In this document: positions 14,104-20,142 of the stretch, piece after piece | Layout: the number at the start of each line of letters is the position of its first letter | Numbering within the stretch: position 1 is the stretch's first letter | Source: an uncultured Lachnospiraceae bacterium | Lineage (GTDB): Bacteria > Bacillota > Clostridia > Lachnospirales > Lachnospiraceae | Assembly: GCA_947178035.1 (NCBI GenBank) | Contig: CAMWXA010000002.1 | Span: forward strand, 1 to 35,775 | Length of the DNA stretch: 35,775 nt | Direction of reading: 5' to 3' | Program-made: the position numbers and the translations under genes | The notes under the pieces: generated by a model | The model's input: the letters and a program-made list of their open reading frames with translations, nothing else | Databases searched by the model: none | What the model was told of the DNA's origin: nothing

Positions 14104-15465
14104 ATGCCGAAACTTTCCATCATCCTGCCATCCCTGAATGTGGCAGCTTATATTCGGGAATGCATCGAAAGCGTAATCAGCCAGACGCTGGCTGACATGG
14201 AAATCTTATGTATCGACGCCGGTTCCACGGATGGAACCCGTGAGATTATCAAAGAATACACTGCCAGGGACAGCCGCATTCGATTTATTTTGTCGGACAA
14301 AAAAAGCTATGGATACCAGATTAATCTGGGCATTGATATGGCCAGGGGAGAATATCTTGGTATCGTTGAGACGGATGACAGCATTGAACCAGATATGTAT
14401 GAGGTATTGTACAAAGCTGCATCCGAAAATGACCTCGATTATGTGAAAGCGGGTTTTTACACTTTGGTTACACCTTACGAGGGGGAACGGTATCTTCTGG
14501 AGAACCCGTTAGGCGATACAGAGAAAATATTCTCAGCACGGTATTTTCTGGAAAAAAGGCTGTCCCCCGACGTCTACATATGGAATGGCATTTACAAGCT
14601 GTCATTTCTGCGGGAATTTCAGATTAGATTAAATGAAAGTCCGGGAGCTGCCTTTCAGGATTGCGGATTTCGCTATCTGACAGATATGAACCTTCGGAGA
14701 GGAATGTTCCTAAAAAGGCTTTTTTACAGATACAGACGGGACAATGCTGCAGCTTCAACTTACAATCCCAATTTTGCCCGGTTCAATCTTGAAGAGTGCA
14801 GATACATCAGGGAGCGGATGAAAGCGGATGGCATAACAGACAGGGGAAGACGTGCCTTTATGGCCAGGGAAACGGTGATGATGGCACTTTCCCCTTATAG
14901 GACCTTCCGGGAGCACAGCCTGCCCAATGAGACAGTCCGGTCAGCGCTTGATGAATTTCGCAGCATGATGCTCCAGGATAAGGAACAAGGGCTGCTAAAA
15001 CAGGAGGAAATGCTTCCCGATCATTGGATTGAGATGCGTCTGTTTACAGAGCAGCCAGAGGCTTATGAAGCTTATATTGCCATTAAGGCAGAGGCCGATT
15101 ATGATATCTATGACAATTTTGTGCAGGAGATGGCAGGGAAGAGACAGATTGTCGTGTTCTGTACTGGAAAAGCGGCAAAATTTGCATTGTGTCTGCTGCG
15201 GATGAATCACTTGGAAAATATTGCAGCTGTCTGTGACAATGACAGTGAAAAATGGGGAGGCTGCTTTCAGGGATACAAAATATTTTCCCCTGCAGAAGCC
15301 ATAAAACGGTATCCTGATGCGCATTATCTGGTGGCAAAAAAGACAAATGGGGAAGAAATTCTACAACAACTGAGCAATCAGGGAATTGCACAAGAGCATA
15401 CGTCAATATACAGGCTTCCGCTAAATGCATTTGGAAGCACGAATTTATTTATGAGAGGATTATGA
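14104..15465 (+). CDS. GT2 family glycosyltransferase with C-terminal Rossmann-like module (tandem paralog 2)
   Basis: MPKLSIILPSLNVAAYIRECIESVISQTLADMEILCIDAGSTDGTREII, 'ETDDSIEPDMY'; C-terminus 'RQIVVFCTGKAAKFALCLL...AVCDNDSEKWGGCFQGYKIFSPAEA'. Confidence 0.87.
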   Translation: MPKLSIILPSLNVAAYIRECIESVISQTLADMEILCIDAGSTDGTREIIKEYTARDSRIRFILSDKKSYGYQINLGIDMARGEYLGIVETDDSIEPDMYEVLYKAASENDLDYVKAGFYTLVTPYEGERYLLENPLGDTEKIFSARYFLEKRLSPDVYIWNGIYKLSFLREFQIRLNESPGAAFQDCGFRYLTDMNLRRGMFLKRLFYRYRRDNAAASTYNPNFARFNLEECRYIRERMKADGITDRGRRAFMARETVMMALSPYRTFREHSLPNETVRSALDEFRSMMLQDKEQGLLKQEEMLPDHWIEMRLFTEQPEAYEAYIAIKAEADYDIYDNFVQEMAGKRQIVVFCTGKAAKFALCLLRMNHLENIAAVCDNDSEKWGGCFQGYKIFSPAEAIKRYPDAHYLVAKKTNGEEILQQLSNQGIAQEHTSIYRLPLNAFGSTNLFMRGL

Positions 15466-15466
15466 A

Positions 15467-16159
15467 ATGACATCAGAACAACGGCTGCAGGAACTCCCAA
15501 AGGCTGTCATCAAGTGGTATGAAATCGGGAAGGAAAGCAAAACAGCCTGTATTGTATCCAACTATGGGAACAGCAGACTTATTGCAGAGGCGCTGGAAGA
15601 AAAGGAATTGTGTGTGCGCCGGATACCACTTGAACAGCTGGAGAGCCTGCAGATCAACCATGCGGAAGATAACGAAAAAACGGCTGCCAGCATCTGTGAA
15701 AACGAACATTATGATATCATTATTGCAGTAGATATGATTGAGTATGCCAGTGATGCGGCTGGGGTCCTGGCGCGCATTCGTTCGCTGCTCAGACCAGATG
15801 GAAAACTGATTATGGCGGCGGACAATCGTCTTGGAATCCGGTATTTTTGCGGTGATCAGGACATGTTTAGCGGCAAAAATTATGACAGCATAGAAAATTA
15901 CCGGCACCTGTTTGCGTGGGAGCGCAGAGCGATGACAGGCAGAACCTATTCTAAGGCAGAACTGATTCGGTTTTTAGAAAAAGCAGGCTTTCTGACACAC
16001 CGCTTTTATTCTGTGTTTCCGCGCATTTCCAATCCGCAGCTGCTTCTTGCGGAGGACTATGTGCCAAATGAGGCGCTGGATATCAGAGTGTTTCCGGAAT
16101 ACAACAATCCAGATACAGTATTTCTTATGGAGGAAGAACTCTATCCAGCCCTGATGTAG
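15467..16159 (+). CDS. Class I SAM-methyltransferase-like domain; ends at in-frame TAG 16157-16159
   Basis: 'YDIIIAVDMIEYASDAAGVLARIRSLLRPDGKLIMAADNRLGIRYFCGDQDMFSG' resembles post-motif II/III of class I methyltransferases. Glycine-rich motif I is weak (ACIVSNYGNS). Confidence 0.65.
   Translation: MTSEQRLQELPKAVIKWYEIGKESKTACIVSNYGNSRLIAEALEEKELCVRRIPLEQLESLQINHAEDNEKTAASICENEHYDIIIAVDMIEYASDAAGVLARIRSLLRPDGKLIMAADNRLGIRYFCGDQDMFSGKNYDSIENYRHLFAWERRAMTGRTYSKAELIRFLEKAGFLTHRFYSVFPRISNPQLLLAEDYVPNEALDIRVFPEYNNPDTVFLMEEELYPALM
16157..16159 (+). other. In-frame TAG (amber) codon inside a multidomain reading frame
   Basis: ...ctg atg TAG aac ggg ctg ctc cat gcc atg gcg...; 15467 and 16178 are in the same frame and the translation continues NGLLHAMANGFFIEC. 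Confidence 0.85.
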
Positions 16160-16177
16160 AACGGGCTGCTCCATGCC

Positions 16178-17875
16178 ATGGCGAATGGCTTCTTTATAGA
16201 GTGTCCGCTTCAGGGGAACTGTTCGCCCATACAGCAGGTTACGCTTTCGGGTGAGCGGGGATTTCAGAATGCAATGGCCACGATCATAGGAAACAATGGT
16301 TTTGTCTCGAAGCGTGTGCTGTATCAGGAGGGGAGAGCAAAACTGCAGCAGCTTTCTGAAAATAACGCGTATCTGGCGGCGCACGGCGTCTGTATGATTG
16401 AGGCCAGAGTCACAGAAGACGCATTTGTGATGCCATACATAACAGGGAATCCAGCAAATGAACATTTTCGGGAGCTGCTCCAATGCGATCGGGAGGCATT
16501 TTTAAGAGAATTGGATGCTTTCTGGAATATTATTCTGCATTCTTCGGAACATGCTGCGCCGGATGAGATCAACTGGGAACAGTTTGAGCCGGGGTGGGAG
16601 AAGCGCAGGAAGGACGATCCCAATCGGGATAAATGGAAAAATATCGCATATGGTTCTGAAATGGAGCGGGAAGAGCTGGGCGTGATCCTGAAAAGAGGAT
16701 ATCTTGATTTAGTTTCCCTGAATTGTTTTTACGTGGACGGGTCTTTTGTATTTTATGACCAGGAGCTGTTTCTGGAGAATGTTCCCGCAAAGGCAGTTAT
16801 GGTCAGAACAATCGAGTTTATCTATAAATTCAATGACCAGCTCGACAGGATTCTCCCGAGAGGAGAAGTCTTTGCGCGGTATGGGATGATCGGGTATATG
16901 GCGCTGTATCAGAAATTTATCAGTCACTTTCTGAATGTCCTGCGGGAAGATGACGGACTCTTCGATTACTTCAAAGAAGGGCGCAGGGAATATGGGAAAG
17001 TTATGGAAAACCGCAGGAGAATGAACTATTCTGAGGAGGAATATCCAATGATTTTCAAGGATATTTTTCATCAGACGAAAGGGCGCAGACTATACCTGTT
17101 TGGCTCTGGAAAATACGCAGGACAATTCCGGGAAAAGTACGGGGCGCGCTATCCGGTGAGCGGTTATCTGGATAACGATGAGCGGCGCTGGGGAACAGAG
17201 ATTGAGGGGATTCCAGTGCTTGCGCCGGCGGCGTTGAAAGAGATGAATCCGGCAGAGTACAAAGTGATTATCTGCATCAAAAATTATATGCCTGTTGTCA
17301 ATCAGCTGCACAGAGCGGGAATTCCCAATTACAGTGTATATGACCCTAAGGCGTCCTATCGGGAAGCGGAGAATGCAGAGCGGGAGCATCAGAGCGCGCA
17401 GACAGAGAATAAAAAATACAATATTGGCTATGTGGCGGGGGTGTTTGACCTTTTTCACATCGGGCATTTGAATCTGCTTCGGCGCGCGAAAGAGCAATGT
17501 AACTATCTGATTGTCGGCGTTGTCACCGATGAAGGGGTTATCAGACACAAGAAATCGAGCCCCAAAATTCCGTATGAAGAGCGCATTGCAATCGTGCGCG
17601 CGTGCAGATACGTGGATGAGGCTGTCGAGATACCGCTCGATCAGGGTGATACGGATGAAGCGTACCGACGGTATCGGTTTGATGCGCAGTTTTCAGGAAG
17701 TGATTATGCAGATGATCCAAAATGGATGGCAAAAAGGGACTTTCTGCAAAGGCATGGCGCGGATCTTGTGTTTTTTCCCTATACAGAGGGAGTCAGTACT
17801 ACACAGTTGAAAGAAGTGGTAGATGGGAAAAGCGATGAAAAGGATAGCAGTCTGGAAGGATGGGGGCGTGTATAA
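16178..17875 (+). CDS. Kinase-like region + Rossmann-like module + TagD/CCT-like cytidylyltransferase domain
   Basis: 'YLDLVSLNCFYVDGSFVFYDQEL' resembles an APH/choline-kinase-type catalytic loop/metal motif; 'RRLYLFGSGKYAGQF...GYLDNDERRWGTEIEGIPVLAPAAL' module; 'YNIGYVAGVFDLFHIGHLNLLRRAKEQC' HxGH nucleotidyltransferase motif. No clear SD before ATG 16178. Confidence 0.75.
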   Translation: MANGFFIECPLQGNCSPIQQVTLSGERGFQNAMATIIGNNGFVSKRVLYQEGRAKLQQLSENNAYLAAHGVCMIEARVTEDAFVMPYITGNPANEHFRELLQCDREAFLRELDAFWNIILHSSEHAAPDEINWEQFEPGWEKRRKDDPNRDKWKNIAYGSEMEREELGVILKRGYLDLVSLNCFYVDGSFVFYDQELFLENVPAKAVMVRTIEFIYKFNDQLDRILPRGEVFARYGMIGYMALYQKFISHFLNVLREDDGLFDYFKEGRREYGKVMENRRRMNYSEEEYPMIFKDIFHQTKGRRLYLFGSGKYAGQFREKYGARYPVSGYLDNDERRWGTEIEGIPVLAPAALKEMNPAEYKVIICIKNYMPVVNQLHRAGIPNYSVYDPKASYREAENAEREHQSAQTENKKYNIGYVAGVFDLFHIGHLNLLRRAKEQCNYLIVGVVTDEGVIRHKKSSPKIPYEERIAIVRACRYVDEAVEIPLDQGDTDEAYRRYRFDAQFSGSDYADDPKWMAKRDFLQRHGADLVFFPYTEGVSTTQLKEVVDGKSDEKDSSLEGWGRV

Positions 17876-17878
17876 TTT

Positions 17879-19204
17879 ATGAAAAAAGTCTGTGCAATGG
17901 CAGGTATCGTAGTTAATCCCGAAAAACCAAAGCAGAGTTTTCAGGAACTGAAAGGCGCAGGGATTCGTGAAGTCATGTTCGATTTTGGCTTGCTCGTATC
18001 GCCGGAAGGGATCTTGATCGATCGAAACAGCGGGGAACCGAAGTTCCGGCCGAAACAGAAAAGAAAATCTTATAAAATCATTATTGAGCAGTTCACAGAG
18101 TATGGTTTTCTGCCATCGATAGCAAGATTACCATTTGTCGATGTGAGGTTAAATTCAAACGACAGGTATTCATATGAGGATTTGAACAGGCTGATTTGGG
18201 AGGTGGACAGGGACTGTATCAGAGCTTGTGAGGAGATGGGATGCCACAATATTATTGTGCAGCCTTTATTTGCAGGATTGGAACCGCGGGAGCGATGGGA
18301 GGCAAACCGTGCGTTCTATCTGGCGCTTGCAAAGGAATGTCAGAAGGAGGAGACAAGGCTTTTGCTGATCAATCAGTGCCAAAACCGGAATGGTCATTTC
18401 GTACGAGGCGTCTGCTCGGATGGAGCGGAGGCGGCCTGCTGGCTGGATTTGCTGAACCGGGAAGTCGGAGGAGACCGTTTTGGGTTTTGCCTTGATGTTG
18501 GAAATTGTAATCTCTGCGGGCAGAATATGCAGAGTCTGGCGAAATCCCTGGGAAGCAGGATTCAAGCGGTAATTCTGACAGAGAATGACGGAAAGAATTT
18601 CGCGAGGCTGCTTCCCTTTACCAATGCCTATGGGCGCAGATCCGCAATGGACTGGCTCAGTGTGATCAGGGGGCTTCGCAATATTTCTTTTGACGGATAT
18701 CTGATACTGGAAACAGTCGATACGACGGTTGCTTTCTCTCCGCTCCTGCAGCCTTATCTGGTGCCAGTCTACAAGGCGCTGCTTGACTATTTTGCGATGC
18801 AGATCAAGATTGAGAAGGAGTTAAAAAAATATGAGCGGGTTGTATTATTTGGAGCCGGAAATATGTGCCGCAATTATATGAAGTGTTATGGTGAGAAGTA
18901 CCCGCCGCTTTTTACCTGCGATAACAATCCGAAATTATGGAATACAGAATTGGAAGGACTGGAAGTCAAAGCCCCGGAGAAGTTAAAAAATTTACCAGAG
19001 AACTGCGGCGTCATTATCTGCAATATTTTTTACCGGGAGATAGAGGAGCAGCTGCGCGCGATGGGAATAGAGAATATTGGATATTTTAACGATGAATATA
19101 TGCCGTCTTTTTATGTGGACAGGTTGAGACGGGAAGAAGATGACGAGGAGGCGGATGACATGAAAAATGTTTTTGGCAGGCAGCGAGGGGAGGAACTATG
19201 TTAG
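17879..19204 (+). CDS. Xylose isomerase-like TIM-barrel protein (degenerate metal site) with C-terminal Rossmann-like module
   Basis: 'RFGFCLDVGNCNLCG', 'AVILTENDGKNFARLLPF', 'GYLILETVDT' align to the downstream paralog; C-terminus 'RVVLFGAGNMCRNYM...FTCDNNPKLWNTELEGLEVKAPEKL'. Confidence 0.75.
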   Translation: MKKVCAMAGIVVNPEKPKQSFQELKGAGIREVMFDFGLLVSPEGILIDRNSGEPKFRPKQKRKSYKIIIEQFTEYGFLPSIARLPFVDVRLNSNDRYSYEDLNRLIWEVDRDCIRACEEMGCHNIIVQPLFAGLEPRERWEANRAFYLALAKECQKEETRLLLINQCQNRNGHFVRGVCSDGAEAACWLDLLNREVGGDRFGFCLDVGNCNLCGQNMQSLAKSLGSRIQAVILTENDGKNFARLLPFTNAYGRRSAMDWLSVIRGLRNISFDGYLILETVDTTVAFSPLLQPYLVPVYKALLDYFAMQIKIEKELKKYERVVLFGAGNMCRNYMKCYGEKYPPLFTCDNNPKLWNTELEGLEVKAPEKLKNLPENCGVIICNIFYREIEEQLRAMGIENIGYFNDEYMPSFYVDRLRREEDDEEADDMKNVFGRQRGEELC

Positions 19205-20142
19205 AGGTCGGTGTACAGACAAAAAATGTGGTGGAAGACGAGAATCCGTCAATGGGTTTTGAGATGCTGAGAAAAGCAGGATTTACCTGCGGTGACTTTA
19301 GTCTGAACACTTATCCGCGCAAGGAGAAACAGTATCTTCCAGGTGAAAAGAATTTCTTCGACCAGTCCATTCAGGAACTTGAGCGTTTCTTCCGGCCGCA
19401 TAAAGAGGCGGCAGAAAAGGCAGGGATCCGAATCAATCAGATGCATATGCGATATCCCATCTTTGTGCCGCGGGCAGACGAGGAGATGAATGCTTATCTC
19501 TGGAATCAGACAGCACCGAAAAGTATGGAAGTATGTCACTATTTCAACTGCAGATATATCGTCATTCATGGATTGAAACTGGCATATTATCTGGGATCGG
19601 AGGAATTGGAATGGCAGGAAACGGCCAGATTCATAGATTCCATAGCGCCGCTTGCAAAGGAGATGGGGATTACCATCTGTATTGAAAATCTGTATGAGGG
19701 GATAGGTGGTCATATTGTGGAAGGACCATGCTGTAATGCGAAAAAGGCAGTGCAGCGGATTGACCAGTTCAACGACAAGTATGGTGCGGAGGTGCTCGGT
19801 TTTTGCTTTGATACAGGTCATGCAAATCTCATCGGGATTGATTTTGAGGATTTTATCACAACACTTGGCCACCGCCTAAAAGTGCTGCATATCCATGACA
19901 ATGATGGGATCGCTGATTTGCACCAGATTCCGTTTACCTTTACAAGGACGCGGGAAAATCTGCCTTCTACGGACTGGGATGGATTTGTACGCGGTTTGAA
20001 AAACATCAGGTTTGACAAGGTGCTGAGTTTTGAGACAGCTCCGGTGCTGACTGCTTTTCCTGAGGAGATGAAACAGGAAGTGCTGTGTTTTATCGCAGGA
20101 ATTGGCAGGTATTTTAGTACATCCTGCCAATGTGGCTTATGA
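19198..20142 (+). CDS. Sugar phosphate isomerase/epimerase (xylose isomerase-like TIM barrel)
   Basis: 'ITICIENLYEG', 'LGFCFDTGHANLIG', 'LKVLHIHDNDGIADLHQIPF', 'VLSFETAP' retain the E/D-H/H/E metal-ligand pattern. Confidence 0.85.
   Translation: MLEVGVQTKNVVEDENPSMGFEMLRKAGFTCGDFSLNTYPRKEKQYLPGEKNFFDQSIQELERFFRPHKEAAEKAGIRINQMHMRYPIFVPRADEEMNAYLWNQTAPKSMEVCHYFNCRYIVIHGLKLAYYLGSEELEWQETARFIDSIAPLAKEMGITICIENLYEGIGGHIVEGPCCNAKKAVQRIDQFNDKYGAEVLGFCFDTGHANLIGIDFEDFITTLGHRLKVLHIHDNDGIADLHQIPFTFTRTRENLPSTDWDGFVRGLKNIRFDKVLSFETAPVLTAFPEEMKQEVLCFIAGIGRYFSTSCQCGL
20101..20131. repeat. Perfect 9-bp inverted repeat ATTGGCAGG-N13-CCTGCCAAT at the 3' end of the TIM-barrel gene
   Basis: Read directly at 20101-20109 and 20123-20131; lies between convergent genes; no T-tract follows. 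Confidence 0.7.

Follow-up and report, generated by a model that had tools for sequence, protein, structure and literature searches.

A methyltransferase-like, kinase, Rossmann and cytidylyltransferase fusion of Lachnospiraceae as a candidate two-step activating enzyme for surface-glycan substituents

A family of fusion proteins found mainly in Lachnospiraceae is, on balance, best read as an enzyme that joins two activation steps for a substituent of surface glycans, in which a small hydroxyl compound would be phosphorylated and then activated with CTP. The member analysed here lies at positions 15467-17875 of a 35,775-nucleotide stretch of DNA (the window; forward strand, as are all features of the gene and of its three neighbours given below). 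As in its relatives, this gene encodes, in the same frame, a methyltransferase-like domain, a kinase domain, a Rossmann-like module and a cytidylyltransferase. In the proposed mechanism, the kinase domain would use ATP to phosphorylate a hydroxyl group of a small polyol, sugar or amino alcohol. The TagD/CCT-type domain would then use CTP to convert this phosphate to a CDP-linked donor with release of PPi, and a separate transferase (a TagF/TagB-like Glyphos_transf protein, or LicD) would move the phospho-X group onto the glycan. The methyltransferase-like domain may act as an inherited scaffold that lacks a SAM motif, and the Rossmann module probably serves to dock the enzyme onto partners that carry such a module too. 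No description of this four-module fusion was found in the literature searched.

A scan of the collection yielded 179 relatives. The best 80 were kept, almost all of them from Lachnospiraceae, and nearly all of these 80 carried the four modules in one ORF. The 16 aligned homologues from the same genus were each a single ORF, mostly of 736-816 aa. One longer fusion, of 1159 aa, occurs in Lachnospiraceae bacterium A4 (L047, 8001-11477); its additional C-terminal region (about 360 aa) resembles a polysaccharide-synthesis glycosyltransferase. At an E-value of 1e-40, a methyltransferase-kinase profile matched 32 of the 397 genomes sampled from the family, including the genome from which the window derives; at 1e-60, the full profile matched 4 of 399 genomes across the phylum, two of these four in another family. 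An earlier note on this DNA had proposed four modules in one polypeptide. The modules are real, were correctly placed and share one ORF in relatives, and all peptides quoted in that note were found where it had put them, but an in-frame TAG (16157-16159) splits the window copy.

The methyltransferase-like domain (15467-16102) gave a partial Pfam match to Methyltransf_23 (E 2.5e-7). Residues N120, R121, F127, C128 and G129 were present in 73 of 73 aligned sequences and the DNRLGIRYFCGD motif was kept. The SAM-binding glycine loop, however, was gone, and a strict SAM motif I occurred in none of the 73. The suspicion, raised from the weak motif I of the window copy (ACIVSNYGNS), that this domain is non-catalytic was thus borne out across the family as far as sequence can tell, and the domain is probably not an active methyltransferase.

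For the kinase domain (16178-17062), neither Pfam nor a PDB sequence-profile search returned a kinase match, and fold comparison was therefore used. AlphaFold modelled the full protein, from an alignment of 73 sequences, with a mean pLDDT of 90.1 and a pTM of 0.83; a separate model of residues 232-532 (16160-17062) reached a pLDDT of 88.5. Foldseek matched the latter model to APH(3')-Ia (E 4.7e-6) and LicA (E 1.7e-4), both with prob 1.00, as well as to macrolide kinases and Rio1. TM-scores were modest (about 0.42), which supports the fold class and not a close kinship. The candidate site residues were K282 (16310-16312), conserved in 71 of the 73 sequences, and D414 (16706-16708), N419 (16721-16723) and D431 (16757-16759), conserved in 72 each. 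Among 70 single-copy loci, the kinase site read K-D-N-D-Q-E in 67 and R-D-N-D-Q-E in three (L071, L087 and L088, with Arg in place of K282), and the catalytic Asp, Asn and Asp were retained in every one of these fusions. The region described earlier as resembling APH and choline kinases is accordingly seen, in the predicted model, to have a kinase fold, also within the segment 16178-17040 where, according to the note, absence of such a fold would have spoken against its reading. The model and conserved residues support an APH/LicA-type small-molecule-kinase fold with catalytic Asp, Asn and metal-binding Asp.

The Rossmann-like module (17075-17362), called shared in the note, is common to neighbouring glycosyltransferases and to the next gene: residues 537-646 of the fusion match the gene starting at 17879 with 32% identity. 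The module showed a weak NeuD-type match, and G546, G548, D569 and N570 were present in 73 of 73 sequences. Apparent proteins with only Rossmann and cytidylyltransferase modules in one genome (G026) proved to be contig ends.

The cytidylyltransferase domain (17411-17839; Pfam PF01467, E 2.8e-16) was, together with the partial methyltransferase match, all that Pfam recognized in the fusion. Its motifs are HIGH (17456-17467) and PYTEGVSTT (Tyr at 17780-17782). Foldseek matches to the full model were mainly cytidylyltransferases, led by the glycerol-3-phosphate cytidylyltransferase GCT (1coz; TM 0.89, rmsd 1.9) and followed by Fom1, CCT and Pcyt2, with methyltransferases further down the list. 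HxGH and K695 occurred in all 71 sequences that have this domain, so that the TagD/CCT-type assignment was upheld and the catalytic residues, whose absence would have spoken against it, are in place. In the RTEGISTT signature, Arg is replaced by Tyr (Tyr772) in 71 of 71; GCT has Arg, while Fom1, which was crystallised with bound HEP-CMP, likewise has Tyr and shows its last motif in the same PYT..SST form. The score against NCBIfam TIGR01518 (g3p_cytidyltrns) was 73.4 bits, far below the cut-off of 165.4, and PRK11316 (HldE) was matched via its nucleotidyltransferase domain at 48.7 bits, likewise far short of its cut-off (521).

Tandem copies of the fusion family linked the two activities. In four of five loci with two such copies (L053, L054, L099, L120 and L186), the cytidylyltransferase-bearing copy had lost kinase residues, while its neighbour, without a working cytidylyltransferase, kept the kinase site (in one case with Asp changed to Glu). 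In L053 and L054, one copy without cytidylyltransferase had an intact kinase site, and the site of the cytidylyltransferase-bearing copy read I-D-K-D-Q-E or K-N-H-N-Q-A. In L099, a copy with a ruined cytidylyltransferase and kinase site K-E-N-D-Q-E accompanied one with K-N-H-N-Q-G. The cytidylyltransferase copy of L186 read T-D-R-E-Q-E, next to a copy with intact kinase and no cytidylyltransferase, and in L120 both kinase sites were intact. In a tree, the ruined kinases fell in two lineages, that is, two separate losses. Fisher's test for kinase loss in tandem versus single-copy loci gave p 4e-6, or 0.004 with the two losses as events, values that are only rough because of shared ancestry. These complementary losses indicated that kinase and cytidylyltransferase probably serve one pathway, in which both activities would be needed and could be divided between neighbouring copies. 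They support the coupled kinase and cytidylyltransferase logic suggested in the earlier note.

Genes around the fusion were in part conserved. A GT2 glycosyltransferase with a C-terminal Rossmann-like module (14104-15465; Pfam) lies directly upstream, and this GT2 cluster was found near the fusion, almost always upstream, in 64 of 80 loci (the best 80 of the 179 relatives). Downstream, the gene at 17879-19204 combines an AP_endonuc_2 TIM barrel, with a degenerate metal-site pattern, and a Rossmann module of this kind in one protein. This is a second case in the window of a degenerate catalytic domain joined to such a module, and it adjoins an AP_endonuc_2 TIM barrel with a conserved E/D/H/E pattern (19198-20142; Pfam E 6.1e-21). 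TIM-barrel genes of this type lay downstream in most loci with enough sequence; a tally of TIM barrels fused to the Rossmann module, from iterated searches contaminated through that module, was left out of account. Glyphos_transf genes, counted with only the catalytic part as query because full-length iterated searches were contaminated by the shared Rossmann module, occurred in 25 loci, all upstream and on the same strand. LicD occurred in nine. Of the 69 loci with 6 kb or more of upstream sequence, 34 thus had one or the other. No such transferase was found in the 35,775-nt window, whose contig starts inside the cluster, and none was within reach in half of the loci. In the same genus, several stand-alone cytidylyltransferase paralogues adjoin LicD or Glyphos_transf genes; one of them (G000:C22:6295-7503), 39% identical to the domain of the fusion, lies about 110 bases from a LicD gene.

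Homologues with fewer modules gave an indication of origin. A kinase-only profile retrieved, at E 1e-34 or better, Lachnospiraceae methyltransferase-kinases that have an intact SAM motif and no cytidylyltransferase (L187, L188). Two further proteins lack the Rossmann module but unite methyltransferase, kinase and cytidylyltransferase: in L193 (5883-7904) the methyltransferase is intact and the SAM motif kept, and in L190 (5358-7169) the motif is lost. The fusion family therefore apparently derives, judging by these homologues, from methyltransferase-kinase proteins of the glycan-terminator type. A likely route leads from a terminator-like methyltransferase-kinase over gain of a cytidylyltransferase to loss of SAM binding, presumably in this order. 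The genome of the window also encodes a methyltransferase-kinase-like protein (L012; G000:C157) with an intact SAM motif, whose gene immediately follows that of an ABC-transporter ATPase. This protein, a candidate glycan terminator, matches the profile in its methyltransferase part but not in its kinase part.

Several characterised systems share parts of this architecture. In the LicA/LicC plus LicD system, a kinase, a cytidylyltransferase and a transferase act in the order proposed here, and LicA was among the fold matches. Choline kinase (LicA) and phosphocholine cytidylyltransferase (LicC) are, unlike the fusion, separate proteins in described lic loci, although a fused LicCA exists in Treponema. 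TagD shares the fold and HxGH motif of the fusion's cytidylyltransferase, which, in contrast to TagD, is joined to a kinase. HldE, which acts on heptose, also unites a kinase with a nucleotidyltransferase, the latter from the same superfamily; that kinase is of the ribokinase type and the product is ADP-heptose. By analogy, CDP-activated substituents have precedents in bacterial surface structures: for the type A glycan of C. difficile, a model proposes CDP-threonine together with a TagF-like transferase (PMC10714395), and Campylobacter has CDP-glucitol (PMC10918830).

The main rival to the two-step reading is glycan-end phosphorylation. Like WbdD or the Klebsiella O7 terminators, the kinase would then phosphorylate a growing glycan at its non-reducing end, with the cytidylyltransferase acting on that phosphate or in a separate step of the locus. 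The order methyltransferase-kinase is indeed known from enzymes that phosphorylate glycan ends and not small molecules (PMC3482155, PMC11231755), which counts against the two-step reading. The N-terminal terminator part of Klebsiella pneumoniae O7 ORF6 combines a methyltransferase with an APH-like kinase that acts on the glycan end, was missed by domain annotation and is encoded in a glycan locus (PMC11231755). It differs from the fusion, to which it is likened by description and not by sequence, in having a working SAM site, in placing a methyl-phosphate on the glycan end and in lacking cytidylyltransferase and Rossmann modules. In WbdD of E. coli O9a, the domain order is the same and the spacing described for D351/N356/D369 resembles that of D414/N419/D431, but the kinase is eukaryotic-protein-kinase-like, the SAM site is active and no cytidylyltransferase is present (PMC3482155). 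WbdD was absent from the top 50 Foldseek matches of the fusion's kinase, among which APH and LicA were best. Glycan-end phosphorylation is further favoured by the Lachnospiraceae methyltransferase-kinases, which resemble the fusion in domain order and are homologous to it in their methyltransferase and kinase regions, and by the position of the fusion gene among glycosyltransferases. Against it, loss of the SAM-binding loop makes methyl-phosphate capping unlikely, and the complementary losses in tandem copies are easier to reconcile with two steps that follow each other on one compound than with capping of a glycan. Moreover, TagD/CCT-type enzymes of known function act on small phosphates. This alternative is consequently considered rather unlikely, and a variant in which a rebuilt terminator phosphorylates a glycan or lipid-linked oligosaccharide and adds CMP, yielding a CDP-capped, activated glycan that is passed on as a block, appears very improbable. 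If the kinase-like domain were instead a pseudokinase or substrate-binding scaffold, the cytidylyltransferase alone would act on a phosphate made elsewhere, such as glycerol-3-phosphate. The failure of sequence searches to see any kinase and the low TM-scores, which also weigh against the two-step reading, as well as the persistence of some copies with a ruined kinase site, point in this direction. However, the catalytic Asp, Asn and Asp are retained in 72 of 73 sequences and have decayed only in loci whose second copy provides them, which makes a non-catalytic kinase domain quite unlikely. The two-step reading is preferred because it combines these conserved residues and the kinase fold with a GCT-like fold and intact HxGH, with complementing tandem copies and with Glyphos_transf or LicD genes near fusions and paralogues, even though such transferases are missing from the window and from the reach of half of the loci.

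As for the window copy itself, it may lack activity, may have been misread or may yield two separate pieces. A search of its own genome found a single full-length copy of the fusion gene, with one TAG inside, located between the methyltransferase-like domain and the kinase where relatives are open. The ORFs on either side (15467-16159, 230 aa; 16178-17875, 565 aa) share one frame, which upon read-through spans 802 aa. Since relatives have one ORF, the family does contain a true fusion, which in this copy is either broken or misread. That the copy is a pseudogene, from which no function follows for the organism, or that its two halves are produced and function as individual proteins, is a serious possibility: after the in-frame TAG, the next in-frame ATG falls at the kinase boundary, and a second gene in the window is cut in the same way. 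The latter, glycosyltransferase-like gene (1475-2569) is interrupted by an in-frame TAG at 2090-2092; a gene in C170 of the same genome, 49% identical to it, is open. On the other hand, no evident Shine-Dalgarno sequence precedes the ATG at 16178, and comparison with L048 gave 81/74/61 identical, synonymous and nonsynonymous codons before the TAG and 228/205/126 after it. This similar constraint on both sides indicated a recent break or a sequencing error, and a defect of this kind would touch the window copy only and not the family. In the 73-sequence alignment, varied and mostly polar residues stand at the TAG position (Glu 31, including the window row, entered as Glu by choice; Lys 16, Gln 8, Asp 6, others). 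Recoding of TAG was not supported: TAG is an ordinary terminator, found at the end of 67 of 271 ORFs (250 aa or longer) from 21 sampled stretches of the genome, and none of the tRNAs found in the assembly (76% complete) has a CUA anticodon reading UAG.

The fusion architecture recurs in surface-glycan loci of gut Lachnospiraceae, with a kinase that no Pfam kinase model sees. If the two-step reading holds, the fusion would point to CDP-activated substituents in glycans of largely uncharted chemistry and would suggest how a terminator-like methyltransferase-kinase came to produce activated donors. With their complementary losses, the tandem copies offer a direct test of the coupling between the two steps.
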